64,000 nt of DNA from Flavobacteriales bacterium. Its GTDB lineage: Bacteria; Bacteroidota; Bacteroidia; Flavobacteriales_D; Sanyastnellaceae. A model generated the notes under the pieces. It made no database searches, had not been told where the DNA came from, and saw nothing but the letters and a program-made list of their open reading frames with translations. The stretch lies in NCBI GenBank assembly GCA_019694805.1, contig JAIBBG010000006.1, positions 1-64,000 of the forward strand, given 5' to 3'. Positions 30,619-41,687 of the stretch are shown here, piece by piece. The position numbers were made by a program, and so were the translations under genes. The first letter of the stretch is position 1, and every line of letters begins with the position of its first letter.

Positions 30619-33600
30619 ATGGGTAAACTATTACGTTCACTCAAGTTTGGCGATGATTCGTGTTGTTGGCGCAACACTATTTCGTCAGGGTTGAAAGCTA
30701 CCATTACGGTGGCTATGTTTGTTTTCTGGGGTGTAGGTCAGTCCTACGCTCAATCCGAGTTCCCTTGCGAACTCTCTATCAATTGTCCTGCTAATGTTGT
30801 TTTGGATTGCGGTAGCGATGTGGAAGACCTCGGTCTTACTGGCGCTCCTGAAGTATCTGATTTCAACTGTCAGGGTGATCTTATTGTTACGCACGCGGAT
30901 GAAGTGCTTTCTGGTGATAACAATTGCCATGTCGTGATTTCACGTACTTGGACAGTTTCAATCATCGGTGGTCCATCTCAAATGTGTACACAAATGATCG
31001 AGATCGTTGATACAGACGGTCCGGTATTCGTTGACGAACCTGCTGATGCTTCTTATCAGTGTGTCGGTGACATTCCTCCAATGCCAACATTGGAAGCTAC
31101 CGATTGCAACATGGTAGAAGAAATTGTAGGATTCGACGTGCAGACTGGTTTCGATACCTTGTTCTGCACACTGACCACTCCTGTGGGTCCTGGACCAGAC
31201 TGGGCTGTATGGCTCAATGGTTTGACTTCACTCGGTCTCGCTTCTAATGACTATTATACCTGGATTCCTGGTACTGCTACCATGCATTACTACGTAGATG
31301 GAACAGCTTATCTCACTGGTGACGTTCGCAACATGTCGAACCCATCTGAAACTTGGACTGTTCACTTCTGGATGGAAAACGGTAAGAACTGGGCAGATTG
31401 GAGTGCAATGGGCCGCAGCTATAAAGATGACCTCGGTTTCGGTGCTGCTACTCACACTGCTTGGACATATTATGAACTCGTTCCAGTGTTCTCTCACTTT
31501 GTTGGAACTGGTGATAACGCAGGTAACAGCCTTTACCTCTCTCACCAGCCTTCTAACTATTACTTCGGTTTCCAATTCGGTGAAGGTGCTAACAACCGTA
31601 ACAACCACGATGGTGGTTCTGGTTGGTTCTACTACTGGGGTTGGGTTGAAGGTGAATACGTGAGCAATCACGGTGACTTGACCGTTGACAAAGTTTGTGT
31701 TCCAGTTGAGCATCCAGATGTAAACTGCGAAACAACTTATACTCGTTTCTGGAGAGCGGTGGATGAGTGCGGTAACGTAACATTCGCTGATCAAAATATC
31801 ACTGTTGAGGATACTACTCCTCCAGTATTTGAAAACTGCTACGACGATATCACTATTGAGTGCGGTGATGAAATTCCTGCTCAGCTTCCAGCTGAAGGTT
31901 TGATCGCTGTTGACAACTGTGGCGGCGCAGTAACCATCTCTGCTATTGATCCAGTTGTAGTTGAAGGTTCTAATGACTGTCACTACATGTTGGAATATGG
32001 TTACGTTGCGATGGATTCTTGTGGTAACATCGGTCGTTGCTCTTATATCGTAAATGTTGTTGATACTGAGTATCCAACACTTACAGTACCAGCAAATCAG
32101 GTTGTTGAATGCAACACTGATATCGACTGGGGTACAGCTAGCGCTTATGATGTATGCGCTGGTGAACTCGAAGTTTCTGTGAGCGAACCTATGTTCTACG
32201 AAGATGATTGCTATGGTTACTGGGTAGTTACTTACACTACTGACGATGGTTGCGACCACGTGGTAACTGCAACTCAGACTGTAGATATCGTTGATACTAC
32301 TGATCCAGTTTTCGATCCATACACTGTTGATGTTTACGTTGAATGCGACCAGGTTGAATCAGTAGAAGGTCTTACTGCTACTGACAACTGCGACCTTGAA
32401 GTAACCATCGATTTGGTTGAAATTACCAACTCTGGTGGTTGCCTCGGTGTGATCATGCGCACTTACACTGCTACTGATGACTGCGGTAACACTGCTGAAG
32501 CAATTCAGTACATCCACGTTCAGGATACTACTCCTGCCGTGATCGATGAGCCAGCTGATATGGATGTTGAATGTGACATGGTTCCAGAAGCACCAGGTGC
32601 TGAAGGTGCTGATGTTTACGACAACTGTGGTTATGATGTAACTGTTGAATTCCACACAGAAGTAGTGGAAGGCGACTGCCCAGCTAACTACTCTATCCTC
32701 TGGATTTGGGAAGCTTGGGACTACTGCGAAAACTATTCTACTGACACTACAGTGATCAATGTGAGCGATAACACAGCTCCTGGTCTTTGGGTTCCACAAG
32801 GCGGTGTATACAACTGTGATGAAGAAATCATCTACGGTGAAGCATCTGCTGAAGATAACTGCGACGACATGGTTGAAATCAGCCATTCTGATACCATCAT
32901 CGCTGGTGAATGTCCACAAGAATATTCAGTAATCCGCACTTGGGTTGCTGTTGACGATTGCGGTAATTCTTCTACTGCTTCTGCTACTTATTGGGTAGTT
33001 GATGAAGTTGCTCCAAACTGGAACGAACAACAGTACGCTTACTCTTATGAGTGCGACGAAGAAATTCCTGTTATCCAACCAGAAGCTTGGGACAACTGCT
33101 CAGAAAACATCACTTATGATCACTCTGATTTTTGGTACAACGAATCTGATTGTAATGGTTATTTGGCACGTACATGGTCTGCTACTGACGAATGTGGTAA
33201 CACAAGCTATTTCTATCAGTACATCAGTATCTATGATGAAACTGCGCCAGTAATCAGCTACGAACCAGAAATCGAACTTCCTTGCGATAACTACGGTGGA
33301 GTTTATGCAACAGCTACTGACAACTGCGACGAATTCGTTGCTGTAGAGTGGTTGAATGATGAACTCGTAAGTGGTGGTTGTCAAGGTAGAATCATGCGTA
33401 CTTATGGTGCATGGGATGATTGCGATAACTACTCTGAAGTAGTTCAAATCATTACACTTACTGATGATGTTGATCCTTGGGTTACTGAACAGACTCCAGA
33501 TCAAACTATCGAATGTGGTGATGACATGCCGGAAGTATTTGTTTCTTTCGACGACAATTGTGATGATGAACTTAGCATCGTTTCTGGTGTATTCGTTGAA

Positions 33601-36600
33601 ACCATCGATTGTATCGTTTATTACACCTACACTTTCACTGCAACTGACAACTGTCAGAACAGCATTTCTGAAAACGTTGTGATCACTGTTGAAGATACTC
33701 AGGACCCATGGTTCGAACAACTTCCAGAGAACATGACCATCAATTGTGATGATGAAGTTCCAGCGATCACTTATCCGAATGCATACGATGTATGTGATGA
33801 AGATGTTGATGTTGAAGTAGCTGATGAAGTTCTTCCAGGTGAGTGTCCACAGGAATACACCATCGTTCGCACTTACCGTGCTTATGACGACTGCGGTAAC
33901 GAAGCTGTAGAATCACGCACGATCACTGTTGTAGATAACGAAGCTCCATCTTTCGACGGAGAATCATTCCAATACTCTTACGAGTGTGATGAAGAAATCG
34001 AATTGATTCAACCTGTTGCTACTGACAACTGCTCAGAAGTAATCGTTTACGATCATACCGATTTCTGGTACGTTGAATCTGATTGCTATGGTTCTATGGT
34101 TCGCACCTGGACTGCAACAGATGAGTGTGGTAACACTGGTTACTACTATCAGTACATCTCTATCTATGACAACACTGCTCCAGTATTCGCTGGTGAAATC
34201 GAAATCGATATGCCTTGCGATCAGATCAGCAACGAAATCCTCGTGACTGCAACTGATAACTGCGATGAAGAAGTGTATATCGAAATCCTCAGCGACGAAC
34301 TCGCTAGTGGTGGTTGCGCTGGTCGTATCATCCGTACTTACCGTGCTTGGGATAACTGCGAAAACTGGTCAGACTTCACTCAATTCATTACATTGATTGA
34401 CAACGTTGCTCCAGTTGCTAGCATGGATCCAGAAGATGCTTCTTACGAATGTGACGAAGAATGGTCTGCTCCACAAGTAACTTTCACAGACAACTGCGAT
34501 GAAGAACTCACCCTGTTGCCTGACCTGTTTATTGCTACTGATGGTTGCACAACAACTTATCACTACATCTGGACTGCCATTGACCATTGCGATAATGCAA
34601 CGACTGTTGAAGCTACTTACACTGTAAGTGACTACACTGCTCCAACAGCAGTTGAATATGACGATATCACTGTTGAGTGTGGTACTGAATATATCGTACT
34701 GGTTCCAAGTTTCTCTGACAACTGCGACATGGAACTTGACTATGACAGCGGTTCTAGTGAAGAAATGGTTGATTGCAACCGTGTAATCACATATTGGTGG
34801 ACTGCTACAGATGATTGCGACCACACTACTTATGTTGATTGGGTTGTAACCATCGAAGACACTACTCCTCCAATGCTTTACACTCCATTTGGTGGTGAGT
34901 ACAGCTGCGATGAAGACATCGTTTACGGTGAAGCTCAGGCTTATGACTTGTGTGACGAGGATGTTGTTCCGACTTACACAGATTCTTTGATCCCAGGAAG
35001 CTGCCCACAATCTTATACACTCATTCGCACATGGACAGTATCTGATGATTGTGGCAACACTTCAACAGGTTCTGCTTGGTACTACGTATATGACAACGAA
35101 GCTCCTGAGTTTACTTCAGTACCTGAGTCAGTAACTATCGAGTGTAGCGATGATATCCCTGCAAGCGAAGCTTCTGCTGTTGACAACTGCGACGAACTCG
35201 TAGATGTTACTCAGGTAGATAACTACTACTATCAGTCTGAGTGCTACAGCATCATCATCCGTACTTTCACAGCTACTGATGACTGCGAAAACAGCAGCAC
35301 TGCAGAACAGTGGATCTATATCCAGGATACAACAGATCCAATCATCACTGGTGAATTCGAAATCGAAATGCCATGTGACGATATCTCTGAAGGTATCTTC
35401 GTTTCTGCAACTGATAACTGTGATGATGACGTGTATATTGAAATCGTAAGCGACGAAGTTGCTAGCGGTGGTTGCGCAGGTCGTATCATCCGTACTTACC
35501 GTGCATGGGACAACTGTCAGAACTACGCTGAATTCGTTCAGTTTATTACTCTGATCGACGAAACTGCTCCTGTTGCTAGCATCGATCCTGAAGACATGAC
35601 CATCGAATGTGGTATGGACTGGATCCCTGCTATGGTAACCTTCGAAGACAACTGTGACGAAGAACTCATCATCATCGATGATCTCTTCATGACTCAGGAA
35701 GCTTGCACTACTTCTTATCACTACATCTGGATTGCTACTGACCATTGCGACAATTCTACAACTGTAGATCAGTGGATCCACGTAGTTGACACAACTGCTC
35801 CAGTTATCGACGATCAGGATTCTGAATCTACTGTTGCTTGCAACGTGATTGTTGATTTCGTTATTCCAATGGCTTCTGACCTTTGTGATGAGTCTGTAGA
35901 AGTAGTTCCTTCTTACGAAAGCATCCCAGGCCAGTGCCCAGGTGAATACACTGAAGTAATAACCTTCACTGCAACTGACGATTGTGGAAACACAAGCTCA
36001 GTAACACACACAGTTCATCACGTTGATGAAGTTGCTCCAACACTCACTGATATTCCAACCAGCATGGAATTGGAATGTGACGAAGAAGTTCCATCTTCTG
36101 AGCCAGGTGCTTATGACTACTGCAGCGATGCTACAGTAATGAGCAACGAATGGATCGAAGAAGGATGGTGCGCTAATAGCTACACTATCGTTCGTGAGTT
36201 CTGGGCTGTTGACGAATGCGGCAATGAATCAGAACCAGTTTACGTTTACTACTGGATTTATGATGCTACTGCTCCTGTATTCGAAACAGAATTCAATGAT
36301 GAAAACTATGAGTGCATCGATTGGGCTTCATACGAACCACAAGCTGCTAGCGCAGTTGATAACTGTGGTGAAGTAACCATTACCGTTGAAATCTCTGAAG
36401 AGACTTCTGACGAATGTGGTAACGGTTGGTGGTATGTTGGTTATGTTGCAGTTGATGACTGCGATAACTACTCAAACTCTGGCTATTGGATTCACGTTGA
36501 CGATACACAAGCTCCTGAACTCAGCGAGTACCCAGCTAGCGTTGTGTTGGATTGCGGTGATGAAATCCCTGCTGCTCCAGAAGTTAGTGCTACTGACAAC

Positions 36601-37653
36601 TGTGATGAAGTTACGGTGACTATGACAGAAACTTGCATAGGCGATTGTCCTGAAGAAGGAAATACTGATTGTGACCTGATCACTCCAGTACGTCCTGCTG
36701 GCAACATCTGTAACTATCCAGTGGATTGGGCTATGGCTCTCTTCGCTATGCCACAAGCTCACAAATGGTATCAGTTGGTTCCAGGTACTGGATCACTCAC
36801 CAACAACGGTGATGGAACAGTTTCTATCTCTGGTACTCTCGTGAACGCTTACGATGCAAACTGCGGTTTCTACTTCAGTGTGAACTTCGGTAGCGAAATG
36901 GATTGGAATGCATGGAGTGCACAAGCTCTTCCTCATGGATTCAAAGATGACTGCGGTGGTGTAGGTGCTAACCACGAAGATTGGTTGTACTACATCCTTC
37001 AGGCTGGTGAAGGTGCTGAACTTATCGGTTGGGGAACTTATTCTGGTTCTTCTATCGATCTGACTCACGCTCCAGTGAACCAGTACTTCGGATTCCAGTA
37101 CGGTGAAGGCGCTAACAACTATAACGCTGAGAATGGTTTTGGTGGTTGGTTCAACTACCACGGTACATTCCTCGTGAATGGCGAGCCTATCATGAGCGGC
37201 TTTGCTGCTGGTGCTGGTGACTTCGCATTCGAAGTTGACTGTTGCCCAGACTATCAGATCGTTCGTTGCTGGACTGCAATGGATTGCTCTGGTAACGAAA
37301 CCAGCTGGTGTCAGACTATCACCTTCGGTGACCTGATTGTTACTGCTCCACAAGTTGCTGCTCAACCAGAAATTGAAGCTGACAAAGGCGAAATCGCTAT
37401 CGTTAGCATCATGCCTAACCCAGCAACTGACAGATCAATGATTTCTTTCATGAGCAAGCAGTCTGGAAGACTTTCTCTCCAGATCCTTGATATGACTGGA
37501 AGAGTTGTTGCTGACCTCTACAACAACAATGTAGAAGGTGGTGTTGTTTACAATGCTGAATTCAATGCTGATCAACTTTCATCTGGTATGTACATGGTTC
37601 GTTTGAACTCAGGTACTGAAGTTGACATAGATCGCGTTCAGATTGCTAAATAA
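30619..37653 (+). CDS. Giant cysteine-rich HYR-like repeat surface protein with T9SS type A sorting domain
   Basis: The protein has 2,344 residues. A long-n-region signal peptide (about 1-45) is followed by about 22 beta-sandwich repeats of 75-85 residues, each ending in a linker such as VEDTTPP, VDNEAP or IDETAP. Each repeat carries four cysteines in the pattern ECxxE, DNC, a mid-repeat Cys and DxCxN. The repeats resemble HYR/Ig-like adhesive domains and are strongly acidic, which suggests calcium binding; this is inferred. Two related, Trp/Tyr/Gly-rich domains frame the array (about 190-350 and 2030-2191). A type A sorting domain (about 2263-2344, VSIMPNPATDRSM) directs T9SS export. The codons are those of a highly expressed gene. 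A surface adhesin or S-layer-like structural protein is the best guess. It stands alone between a promoter and a strong terminator. Confidence 0.9.
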   Translation: MGKLLRSLKFGDDSCCWRNTISSGLKATITVAMFVFWGVGQSYAQSEFPCELSINCPANVVLDCGSDVEDLGLTGAPEVSDFNCQGDLIVTHADEVLSGDNNCHVVISRTWTVSIIGGPSQMCTQMIEIVDTDGPVFVDEPADASYQCVGDIPPMPTLEATDCNMVEEIVGFDVQTGFDTLFCTLTTPVGPGPDWAVWLNGLTSLGLASNDYYTWIPGTATMHYYVDGTAYLTGDVRNMSNPSETWTVHFWMENGKNWADWSAMGRSYKDDLGFGAATHTAWTYYELVPVFSHFVGTGDNAGNSLYLSHQPSNYYFGFQFGEGANNRNNHDGGSGWFYYWGWVEGEYVSNHGDLTVDKVCVPVEHPDVNCETTYTRFWRAVDECGNVTFADQNITVEDTTPPVFENCYDDITIECGDEIPAQLPAEGLIAVDNCGGAVTISAIDPVVVEGSNDCHYMLEYGYVAMDSCGNIGRCSYIVNVVDTEYPTLTVPANQVVECNTDIDWGTASAYDVCAGELEVSVSEPMFYEDDCYGYWVVTYTTDDGCDHVVTATQTVDIVDTTDPVFDPYTVDVYVECDQVESVEGLTATDNCDLEVTIDLVEITNSGGCLGVIMRTYTATDDCGNTAEAIQYIHVQDTTPAVIDEPADMDVECDMVPEAPGAEGADVYDNCGYDVTVEFHTEVVEGDCPANYSILWIWEAWDYCENYSTDTTVINVSDNTAPGLWVPQGGVYNCDEEIIYGEASAEDNCDDMVEISHSDTIIAGECPQEYSVIRTWVAVDDCGNSSTASATYWVVDEVAPNWNEQQYAYSYECDEEIPVIQPEAWDNCSENITYDHSDFWYNESDCNGYLARTWSATDECGNTSYFYQYISIYDETAPVISYEPEIELPCDNYGGVYATATDNCDEFVAVEWLNDELVSGGCQGRIMRTYGAWDDCDNYSEVVQIITLTDDVDPWVTEQTPDQTIECGDDMPEVFVSFDDNCDDELSIVSGVFVETIDCIVYYTYTFTATDNCQNSISENVVITVEDTQDPWFEQLPENMTINCDDEVPAITYPNAYDVCDEDVDVEVADEVLPGECPQEYTIVRTYRAYDDCGNEAVESRTITVVDNEAPSFDGESFQYSYECDEEIELIQPVATDNCSEVIVYDHTDFWYVESDCYGSMVRTWTATDECGNTGYYYQYISIYDNTAPVFAGEIEIDMPCDQISNEILVTATDNCDEEVYIEILSDELASGGCAGRIIRTYRAWDNCENWSDFTQFITLIDNVAPVASMDPEDASYECDEEWSAPQVTFTDNCDEELTLLPDLFIATDGCTTTYHYIWTAIDHCDNATTVEATYTVSDYTAPTAVEYDDITVECGTEYIVLVPSFSDNCDMELDYDSGSSEEMVDCNRVITYWWTATDDCDHTTYVDWVVTIEDTTPPMLYTPFGGEYSCDEDIVYGEAQAYDLCDEDVVPTYTDSLIPGSCPQSYTLIRTWTVSDDCGNTSTGSAWYYVYDNEAPEFTSVPESVTIECSDDIPASEASAVDNCDELVDVTQVDNYYYQSECYSIIIRTFTATDDCENSSTAEQWIYIQDTTDPIITGEFEIEMPCDDISEGIFVSATDNCDDDVYIEIVSDEVASGGCAGRIIRTYRAWDNCQNYAEFVQFITLIDETAPVASIDPEDMTIECGMDWIPAMVTFEDNCDEELIIIDDLFMTQEACTTSYHYIWIATDHCDNSTTVDQWIHVVDTTAPVIDDQDSESTVACNVIVDFVIPMASDLCDESVEVVPSYESIPGQCPGEYTEVITFTATDDCGNTSSVTHTVHHVDEVAPTLTDIPTSMELECDEEVPSSEPGAYDYCSDATVMSNEWIEEGWCANSYTIVREFWAVDECGNESEPVYVYYWIYDATAPVFETEFNDENYECIDWASYEPQAASAVDNCGEVTITVEISEETSDECGNGWWYVGYVAVDDCDNYSNSGYWIHVDDTQAPELSEYPASVVLDCGDEIPAAPEVSATDNCDEVTVTMTETCIGDCPEEGNTDCDLITPVRPAGNICNYPVDWAMALFAMPQAHKWYQLVPGTGSLTNNGDGTVSISGTLVNAYDANCGFYFSVNFGSEMDWNAWSAQALPHGFKDDCGGVGANHEDWLYYILQAGEGAELIGWGTYSGSSIDLTHAPVNQYFGFQYGEGANNYNAENGFGGWFNYHGTFLVNGEPIMSGFAAGAGDFAFEVDCCPDYQIVRCWTAMDCSGNETSWCQTITFGDLIVTAPQVAAQPEIEADKGEIAIVSIMPNPATDRSMISFMSKQSGRLSLQILDMTGRVVADLYNNNVEGGVVYNAEFNADQLSSGMYMVRLNSGTEVDIDRVQIAK
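32782..35802 (+). repeat. Four-unit super-repeat inside the giant surface-protein gene
   Basis: Repeat units 6-9, 10-13 and 15-18 (counting linkers from the N-terminus) are three copies of the same ordered block of four unit types. Equivalent cysteine codons lie 933 bases apart between copies 1 and 2 (32911/33844, 33052/33985, 33283/34216) and 936 for the fourth unit (33514/34450). Between copies 2 and 3 they are 1,158 bases apart (33844/35002, 34216/35374, 34450/35608), the difference being one extra 75-residue unit (about 34645-34872). Confidence 0.85.
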
Positions 37654-38354: not shown

Positions 38355-41300
38355 ATGAAATATTTGATCATTCTGGCAATATTTGCCGGAACAGCCTTTG
38401 GTGCGTTTGGCCAAATCTCTTGCTCAAATGCAGTTTATAGGGATACCACCGTGTACACGAACGGTGCACCTTCTGACAGTTTGTTTTTCATATGTGCTGG
38501 TCAGACAGCATCGCTCACTGCTACGCCTTCCTCGGGTAATCCTGGATGGACTTTTCAATGGTCTTCGTTTGTAGCGGCCAGCAATTCTTGGACACCTCTC
38601 ACAACGGAGAACAATGTACCTACCAGCACCCAAACTGTCGCAAATGGTGGGTATCGCGTACAGATTTTCGATGGTGATAATAATCTCGTCGATACGGACA
38701 TTGTATGGGTTTGTCGTGTTCAGACGAATCCAACAGTAAACGTCAATACCATCCCCGCTGGTTGTGGTGCGGTTAATTTGTCTGCCGTTTTCATCACCGG
38801 GAATATTACTGGCTATTACAATCCACCAACAGATACAGGTGTAATACCACAATTGATCGTGGATGCCAACACGGAAATCAGCATTTGCTATACAGCAACG
38901 CACACTTGGGTCTCTGACTTGGCGTTTTATGTGGTTGGCCCTGCTTCCTGCGGCAGTCCTACACTTCTTTTGTCACCGAATCCTGGTGCCAATGGCCAAG
39001 GCAATGTCTGCAACAGTGGTAATAACGTTACCAATCTTTGTTTTTCGACTGAGTCAACTGCCAATTTGGATGTTTGCACTGGAGCACCATTTACGCTTTC
39101 TGGTACTTACGGTTCTTATGGCCTTACCGCAACACCCATCAATTGGAGCCAATTGTATGGCTGTGACGCCAATACAACAGGATGGGCAGTTCAAATTTAT
39201 GACTGTGTTGGTGGAGACGTAGGTAGCCTTACCGATGCTACTTTGACATTTACAGGAACAAATAGTCTCGGAGATCCGATGACATCAACCTATACCACAC
39301 CAACTGGTTTCAATTCACCCATTGCGGATAATAGTTGCTCAGCAGCCAGCGCTTCCATATTTCAGGTAGGAGCAGTAGTCACACCAGCTACTCAAATTCT
39401 GCACAATTTCACGTATGAATGGACAGCGAATCCACCATTTCCAATTCCCAATAGCACATCGGCGTTGAACATTACCCTCAATCCGGGACCAACTGTTGAT
39501 ACCTATTTTACATTGACAATGGGTGGACCCAATCCAGGTGCAGCATGTGGAGGCAATGAGTCAGATACTGAGTTGTTCGACTATATTGATCCAACTACAG
39601 CCGTCATAACAACAACGGATACAGTTTACTGCGAACAGGAAAATGCATTCAATCTGACTTCAGATCAGAATGGTGGTACATGGAGTGGTACTGGTATCGT
39701 CAATGCGATTTTTGGTACATTCAATCCTGATGTTGCCGGTGAAGGAACATGGACCGTGAATTATATGCCTGCATCTGGTTGCGTGAATGGCACCAGCATA
39801 GACATTACTGTAATCGACCAACCGGTTGCTGCAATTACTCCGGTGCCTCCGGTCTGCAGTTCTGCCGATCCTTTTGATTTGGTGGTAGACATCCCCGGAG
39901 GTATTTTCTCTGGAGATGGAATCACTGATGGTAATGCTGGTACTTTCGATCCTTCTGTTTTTGGTCAAGGTACTGCAAACATCAATTATGAAATCGGTGG
40001 TGATTGCCCGGTAAGTGGCACGACCAGTATTGAGGTTGTTTATCAGGAACCACTGCAATTGGGATCTCCACAAACTGAATTTTGTATTGATGCAGACAGT
40101 GTTCAACTTTCTGCCAACGTACCTGGTGGTGTCTGGTCCGGCGACGGTATCACTGACGCTTTGAATGGTTGGTTCAATATTTCAGTTGCTGGACTTGGTG
40201 ATCATTCAATTACATATTCTTATAGTGGTGTATGTCTCGATGAATCTTCTATCACACTTTCTGTTGTTGATTCTACTTTAAGCATTGATCCTGTGAATGA
40301 CTTGTGTTTGAGCTCTAATCCAGTGGTATTGGTGGCATCATATTCCGGCGGAGTTTGGTCTGGTCCTGGAATTACCAATGATGTAGTTGGTGTCTTTAGT
40401 CCTTCTACCTTAGGTGCTACTGGTAATTATACTGTTTATTATACAAGCAATAATGCATGCAATGCTGTTGACAGCTTGACCATTTTTGTAGATGGAGTAC
40501 CATCTTTGAGTATTACCGTTCCTGATCAGGTTTGTTCGGATGAAGGCTTGATACAATTGCAAGCCAGCGAACCTGGCGGTGTATGGAGTGGTGACGGAAT
40601 CGTTGATGCAGTGAATGGAACATTTGATCCGGCCTCTGCTGGTTCAGGATCGGCTGACGTTACTTATACAATCAATGCAACGTGTATCTATTCTGCAGAA
40701 GACGTCATCAATGTCAATGCGGTACCAACAGTGAATGCAGGCGCAGATGTATCTATTTGTCCGGGTGAAGGTGCTTCACTACTTGGCAATGGTGCACAAA
40801 CTTATGTTTGGTCACCATCTACAGGATTGAGTTCTCCAAATGCGGCAAGCACTGCAGCTTCACCTGCAACTACGACAACGTACACTTTAACAGGAACCAC
40901 TGCAGCTGGCTGTTCAGACAGCGATCAGATCACTGTAACAGTTTATCCGGCTGCAAATATCAATGCGATGTCACCACTCTATGTGTGTGAAGGCGAAGAT
41001 GTTGAATTGAACGCAACTGGCGGTGTTACTTATACATGGACTGGACAAGGTGTAGCCAATCCAAATGCAGCGACTACTTCTGCATCACCAGGTGAATCTA
41101 CAACCTATGTCGTGAATGCAACAGATGCAAATAGTTGTGATGGATCTGCAACCGTAGAGGTCATTGTGATTGCACCGCAGGCGTATTTCATTCCTTCAAC
41201 TACGGAAGGAATGGTTCCGTTGGTGGTGAATTTTGACAATGAGTCCGAGGGCGACAACTTTACATGGGATTTTGGGAATGGATCAACTCTGCAGACTTCT

Positions 41301-41687
41301 GATGTAAACCAGGGTGTAGTGGAAGATTACACACAAGAAGGTGTATACACTGTAACACTTACCGCTGAAGAAGATGGATGTATTTCTACCTATTCAGTCG
41401 ATATCCATGCATACTATGTAAGCGGAATTTCTAAGGTACCTAACATTGTTACTTTGGGTGGCGATGGAAAAAATGATGAGTTCAGAATTGAATCTACCAA
41501 TATCAGAACCATCGAAGTGAATATTTTTGATAGATGGGGTAAACACTTGGGTAAGATTGACAAACCAGGTGGATCTTGGGATCCTTCTGAATTTGGTACT
41601 GGAACGTATTACTATGTGCTAAACGCACAGGGTTACGATGGTATGAACTACGAAAGATCTGGTTACGTCACAGTTATTTCGCAATAA
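38355..41687 (+). CDS. Secreted multi-domain protein with T9SS type B C-terminal domain
   Basis: The protein has 1,110 residues. A signal peptide (about 1-20) is followed by an Ig-like domain, then a region resembling a proprotein-convertase P-domain (about 150-300, ICYTATHTWVSDLAFYVVGP). Five repeats of about 80 residues each carry a core such as PGGVWSGDGI (about 435-780). Two further Ig-like units with AGADVSICPGEG- and YVCEGEDVELNA-type openings, and a PKD domain (about 950-1020), come next. The last domain (about 1025-1110, SGISKVPNIVTLGGDGKNDE) is the type B sorting domain. No catalytic site is visible. It is probably a surface adhesin exported by the T9SS. Confidence 0.85.
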   Translation: MKYLIILAIFAGTAFGAFGQISCSNAVYRDTTVYTNGAPSDSLFFICAGQTASLTATPSSGNPGWTFQWSSFVAASNSWTPLTTENNVPTSTQTVANGGYRVQIFDGDNNLVDTDIVWVCRVQTNPTVNVNTIPAGCGAVNLSAVFITGNITGYYNPPTDTGVIPQLIVDANTEISICYTATHTWVSDLAFYVVGPASCGSPTLLLSPNPGANGQGNVCNSGNNVTNLCFSTESTANLDVCTGAPFTLSGTYGSYGLTATPINWSQLYGCDANTTGWAVQIYDCVGGDVGSLTDATLTFTGTNSLGDPMTSTYTTPTGFNSPIADNSCSAASASIFQVGAVVTPATQILHNFTYEWTANPPFPIPNSTSALNITLNPGPTVDTYFTLTMGGPNPGAACGGNESDTELFDYIDPTTAVITTTDTVYCEQENAFNLTSDQNGGTWSGTGIVNAIFGTFNPDVAGEGTWTVNYMPASGCVNGTSIDITVIDQPVAAITPVPPVCSSADPFDLVVDIPGGIFSGDGITDGNAGTFDPSVFGQGTANINYEIGGDCPVSGTTSIEVVYQEPLQLGSPQTEFCIDADSVQLSANVPGGVWSGDGITDALNGWFNISVAGLGDHSITYSYSGVCLDESSITLSVVDSTLSIDPVNDLCLSSNPVVLVASYSGGVWSGPGITNDVVGVFSPSTLGATGNYTVYYTSNNACNAVDSLTIFVDGVPSLSITVPDQVCSDEGLIQLQASEPGGVWSGDGIVDAVNGTFDPASAGSGSADVTYTINATCIYSAEDVINVNAVPTVNAGADVSICPGEGASLLGNGAQTYVWSPSTGLSSPNAASTAASPATTTTYTLTGTTAAGCSDSDQITVTVYPAANINAMSPLYVCEGEDVELNATGGVTYTWTGQGVANPNAATTSASPGESTTYVVNATDANSCDGSATVEVIVIAPQAYFIPSTTEGMVPLVVNFDNESEGDNFTWDFGNGSTLQTSDVNQGVVEDYTQEGVYTVTLTAEEDGCISTYSVDIHAYYVSGISKVPNIVTLGGDGKNDEFRIESTNIRTIEVNIFDRWGKHLGKIDKPGGSWDPSEFGTGTYYYVLNAQGYDGMNYERSGYVTVISQ

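Follow-up and report, generated by a model that had tools for sequence, protein, structure and literature searches.

We identified, within the window (the whole 64,000-nucleotide stretch of Flavobacteriales DNA analysed here), a giant ORF whose product carries two homologous copies of an unnamed domain, one near each end of a long repeat array and each inserted into a repeat unit. With a probability of roughly 0.6, we interpret this product as a fibrillar adhesin anchored through the type IX secretion system (T9SS), whose distal and surface-proximal binding modules belong to one new domain family. The features on which this interpretation is built are the following.

30619..37653, plus strand: giant ORF of 2344 aa, with a signal-peptide-like N terminus, an HYR_4C array, two inserted domains and a type A T9SS tail.
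31018..31149, plus strand: HYR unit split by copy 1, first half (residues 134-177), delimited by the AlphaFold2 model; both flanks jointly match single PDB Ig domains.
31150..31698, plus strand: copy 1 (N-type) of the inserted domain, residues ~178-360, delimited by the BLASTP pair and the AlphaFold2 model.
31543..31641, plus strand: most conserved stretch of copy 1, with H309, P311, YFGFQ319, G321, N325, N328, W336 and G341.
31699..31824, plus strand: HYR unit split by copy 1, second half (residues 361-402), delimited by the AlphaFold2 model and structural comparison.
31825..36507, plus strand: HYR_4C repeat array between the two split units, from Pfam.
36508..36654, plus strand: last HYR unit, split by copy 2, first half (residues 1964-2012), delimited by the AlphaFold2 model; the Ig matches use both flanks.
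36655..37242, plus strand: copy 2 (C-type) of the inserted domain, residues ~2013-2208, carrying the C-type-only cysteines C2031 and C2112.
37066..37164, plus strand: most conserved stretch of copy 2, with H2150, P2152, YFGFQ2160, G2162, N2166, N2169, W2177 and G2182.
37243..37338, plus strand: last HYR unit, second half (residues 2209-2240), delimited by the AlphaFold2 model and the Ig matches.
37408..37635, plus strand: type A T9SS C-terminal sorting domain, residues 2264-2339 (Por_Secre_tail PF18962, E 4.8e-10; TIGR04183, E 5.6e-8).

By sequence, the giant ORF is both an HYR_4C repeat protein and type A T9SS cargo. Pfam analysis revealed HYR_4C (PF23237) in 20 stretches over the whole protein, at 246 bits and above the curated cut-off, and the tail exceeded the thresholds of both PF18962 (40 bits versus a cut-off of 27) and TIGR04183 (32.7 bits versus 23). 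Searches of Pfam and NCBIfam returned no match to RTX families or to SprB, and this outcome, together with the type A tail, led us to reject both an RTX adhesin and an SprB-type gliding adhesin as identities for the protein. The product of the gene next downstream (window 38355-41687) is 1110 aa long and has a PKD domain and a T9SS tail of type B (CHU_C).

The two inserted copies are homologous, sharing 35% identity over 199 aligned positions (BLASTP 90.5 bits, E 5e-27), and each measures about 190 residues. The earlier note, made from the letters of the DNA, had proposed this kinship on the strength of common motifs, and all of them are indeed present in both copies: the W-A start, PGT...DG, W..WSA...KDD, YFGFQ(F/Y)GEGANN and GWF.Y.G. 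Its placement of the two segments at residues ~190-350 and 2030-2191 was right as to location, the true limits being slightly wider (~178-360 and ~2013-2208). Each segment had also been said to interrupt a repeat unit; we found that both copies split an HYR unit at the identical place, after the D-N-C strand and before that of Y-x-A-x-D-x-C-G-N. Consistent with the description of the segments as unlike the HYR-type units, Pfam places HYR_4C elsewhere in the protein and nothing on either of them.

The label "uncharacterised" likewise holds, as the domain is without a name in Pfam, NCBIfam, PHROGs or PDB sequences, and neither copy is an ordinary known domain of the first three collections. Profiles of Pfam and NCBIfam gave no match to the window copies even at E 10, PHROGs gave none at E 0.01, and a profile of 24 relatives retrieved no PDB chain up to E 10. 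In the papers searched on HYR and T9SS, we found no description of the inserted domain. On these comparisons, the insert lies outside every named family tested and is an unnamed domain family.

To the sequence comparison we added AlphaFold2 models of both copies with their flanking repeat halves, each built on an alignment of relatives. Both were of high confidence (copy 1: 59-row alignment, pLDDT 95.7, pTM 0.90; copy 2: 116-row alignment, pLDDT 95.1, pTM 0.86) and gave the two inserts the same ten strands, arranged as a beta-meander with one short helix after strand four. The structural similarity that the earlier note had proposed to look for is therefore present at the level of prediction, as one fold common to both copies. 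In VIA-align comparisons, single Ig domains aligned to model residues 1 to ~264-277 (for copy 1, 1 to 264-269), that is, to both flanks with the insert skipped, and beta-barrel structures aligned to the insert alone in both models. This division suggests that each copy buds, in the same loop, from a single Ig-like HYR unit predicted to close around it, which is the split-domain layout of an insert within one Ig-like unit folding from both flanks.

The best structural neighbours of the insert were up-and-down beta-barrels, namely CarO, PloI4, AbyU, HtaA, HtaB, streptavidin, PsbO and GID4. For copy 1, the closest was the CarO barrel (VIA-align Z 8.9 over 128 residues at 3.7 A), and for copy 2 every neighbour scored below Z 7 (2q03 6.8, PsbO 6.7, streptavidin 6.4). 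Such low values may reflect a common arrangement only, and we did not accept the VIA-align matches as kinship, either of the flanks with Ig domains or of the insert with assorted beta-barrels. Foldseek yielded no convincing match for either model and, against viral proteins, no match. The FrhA and MpAFP peptide-binding structures headed its results (E 4e-4 and 4e-3), but at TM 0.15-0.19 and rmsd >20 A; with TM <0.2, no membership of their fold is claimed.

The functional interpretation is drawn from RTX adhesins, in which ligand-binding domains have been recognised by their budding from split Ig domains (PMC12077191, PMC10865825). Guided by this rule, a study of one Aeromonas protein found three domains of this kind and solved two of them (PMC12077191), and the layout had been described earlier for a sugar-binding domain of FrhA (PMC10865825). 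Because the layout in the giant ORF is the same, we take its inserts as putative binding modules, by a rule derived from type I-secreted RTX adhesins and not from T9SS proteins. By sequence, no known binding domain matches the insert, and by fold the resemblance is only loose (best Z 8.9, CarO, in one model). Of the sugar-binding role suggested in the earlier note, binding is the best-supported part, by analogy with split-domain placement, with sugar as no more than a possible ligand.

Under this interpretation, the gene product would be a type IX-secreted, probably surface-anchored fibrillar adhesin with a stalk of ~20 HYR_4C Ig-like units. Two of the stalk units would be split, each by a ~190-residue beta-barrel-like insert that projects sideways from the same loop and, by analogy with RTX adhesins, may serve as a ligand-binding module. 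PorU cleaves type A tails, and the protein is then either attached to A-LPS through its new C terminus or set free (PMC10202324). With a tail of this type, the C terminus would be the anchored end, so that copy 1 would lie far from the cell and copy 2 near the outer membrane.

Among 60 relatives, 39 genomes carried the domain. Profile searches detected it in 40 of the 51 genomes from the Flavobacteriales family to which the window belongs and in 51 of 199 across the order (40 of them from that family); phylum-wide, 6 of 296 genomes carried it, comprising 2 in the window's family and 4 weak distant matches. The domain is thus common in one Flavobacteriales family, rarer in the order and very rare beyond it. 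Nearly all named genome loci belong to Flavobacteriales MAGs of lake, pond or marine origin.

In one distant relative (L120), reading by eye places the domain still inside an HYR-like unit. Loci from other Bacteroidota families (L118, L121) hold single distant relatives of the domain beside DUF7467 (a weak match in L118), outside HYR arrays. An ORF in a MAG labelled Roseivirga (L100:1-7005) combines three domain copies with SprB repeats. A viral contig of 174,942 bases (IMGVR_UViG_3300008267_000005) encodes a 567-aa protein (L041:4266-5969) in which HYR_4C units accompany a single C-type copy; its T9SS tail is weak (20.9 bits, below the Pfam cut-off of 27). Given its matches to Gp23 capsid (E 2e-39) and terminase (E 8e-22), this contig looks like a real tailed phage with a host-type surface protein.

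The earlier note had asked whether the same bracket occurs in other giant proteins, and it does. Among 56 complete domain-bearing ORFs, 39 have at least 1800 aa, and 35 of these 39 carry exactly two copies, counts that do not give the share of two-copy proteins among giant HYR proteins at large, since the loci were fetched for carrying the domain. In all 38 complete two-copy ORFs, whatever their length, 116-143 residues lie between the end of the second copy and the C terminus, and a T9SS C-terminal sorting domain is present in many relatives. Within the window's genome, the giant ORF is the only one with two detected copies; others have one, and some giant HYR ORFs have none. Single-copy proteins mostly retain the C-type position. 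One protein (L049:4622-11014) has a C-type copy only and an N-terminal choice-of-anchor L domain, which hints that the first module may be replaceable; in another (L027:3266-9286), which has one C-type copy, a C-terminal GC-type dockerin-like domain replaces the T9SS tail.

Phylogenetic analysis of 92 copies from 46 two-copy ORFs revealed that one change suffices to divide the N from the C positions (1 versus ~31 for shuffled labels), with 73% support for the separating branch; among 162 copies, partial ORFs included, the separation has a few exceptions. Identity between N and C copies is 29% within a protein and 28% between proteins, N copies share 38% with one another and C copies 39%. The tree separation and the equal within- and between-protein identities point to one old duplication without homogenisation, and the same results rule out recent duplication or gene conversion inside each protein. 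The pair is accordingly best described, at the sequence level, as the product of one ancient duplication whose N-type and C-type sequences have been distinct since.

Two separate ancient lineages, always at opposite ends, lend some appeal to an alternative in which an N-type copy binds a C-type copy, either on a different molecule or on its own, so that fibres become joined head to tail in a surface layer or a cell-cell mesh. The distances of N and C copies do correlate (r = 0.85), and a partial correlation of 0.46 persists after the tail and neighbouring repeats are removed. However, the secretion tail correlates nearly as well with both copies (0.79 with N, 0.81 with C) and the other partial correlations reach 0.44-0.45, so that gene history explains most of the N-C correlation. 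We therefore did not accept this covariation as proof of contact, the partial value of 0.46 not being decisive. Many proteins, the phage version included, moreover have only one copy, and we regard subunit joining as unlikely. That the two ancient specialised forms at opposite ends recognise each other, with molecules assembling head to tail into a surface mesh or bridging cells, is quite unlikely.

Across the 162 copies, the H, P, Q and G of H-x-P...FQ-x-G (H2150, P2152, Q2160, G2162) are invariant, and W2099, N2166, G2173, W2177 and D2201 are nearly so. Conservation of YFGFQ as an artefact of the pattern used for fetching loci was rejected, because 69 of the 162 copies do not match that pattern and H, P, Q and G stay invariant in them. 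Each type also has its own signature, a cysteine pair in C-type copies (C2031, C2112) and a conserved G, F, A and G in N-type copies. Cysteines at the two insert ends co-occur (both in 87, neither in 22, one in 7), as would fit a disulfide at the insert neck.

The many glycines and aromatics among the most conserved residues, and the constant position of copy 2 in the last unit before the T9SS tail (38/38 two-copy ORFs), would also suit inserts that bind nothing and instead protect or stabilise the array ends or aid T9SS export. Against such a cap or stiffener, 80-1200 residues precede the first copy in complete proteins, which in many of them is not at the physical end, and the HYR unit is closed around the insert rather than ended by it; on these two grounds, the capping role put forward in the earlier note is unsupported. 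The window's genome further encodes HYR_4C ORFs of 3639 and 3079 aa without a detected copy, and we give a purely structural role a low probability. A small-molecule carrier or enzyme, with the barrel holding a ligand or cofactor (compare streptavidin, HtaA and AbyU-type cyclases) and displayed by the stalk, is very improbable: the up-and-down barrel neighbours and the invariant polar residues (H, Q, N, N, D) favour it, but Z 6-9 is a usual score among beta-barrels, the neighbours have no function in common, and no catalytic or haem motif was recognised in the insert.

The preferred reading, a T9SS-anchored adhesin with a binding module near each end, invites comparison with the split-domain modules of RTX adhesins (the FrhA/MpAFP peptide-binding domain and the AhLap CBM and RTX domains). 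Common to both is a beta-rich insert, here a predicted one, in one Ig-like unit of a giant repetitive protein, with the unit closing after the insert. The RTX adhesins, however, use type I secretion and gather their binding modules at the C-terminal distal end, whereas the giant ORF combines T9SS, an HYR_4C stalk and one module near each end, and its insert is unrelated by sequence to the known RTX modules and aligns to them at TM <0.2.

Other known systems share single elements of the architecture. HYR_4C proteins (PF23237) have the same stalk units, although the Pfam model neither includes nor describes the inserted domain. The sorting domain is common to the giant ORF and type A T9SS cargo (PF18962, TIGR04183); most known cargo of this type are enzymes, and we found none described with a two-copy bracket in the literature searched. 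SprB-type gliding adhesins are likewise giant, repetitive, T9SS-secreted surface proteins of Flavobacteriales. They are characterised by SprB repeats, type B tails and PorP/SprF partners (in part PMC10202324), whereas the giant ORF has a type A tail and HYR_4C repeats, with no PorP/SprF match in the six neighbouring genes scanned. The up-and-down beta-barrels (CarO, streptavidin, AbyU/PloI4, HtaA) share the antiparallel meander at Z 6-9 but no sequence similarity or function, which probably reflects a common arrangement only.

Collectively, these comparisons point to one more family of probable binding modules in giant bacterial surface proteins, unnamed and well delimited. The split-domain layout, worked out on type I-secreted RTX adhesins, would thereby reach Bacteroidota proteins secreted by the type IX system. 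Being two-ended and non-homogenised, the pair allows a clean test for a difference in job between the distal and the surface-proximal module of one fibre, and its clear limits offer constructs for work on the attachment targets of aquatic bacteria.
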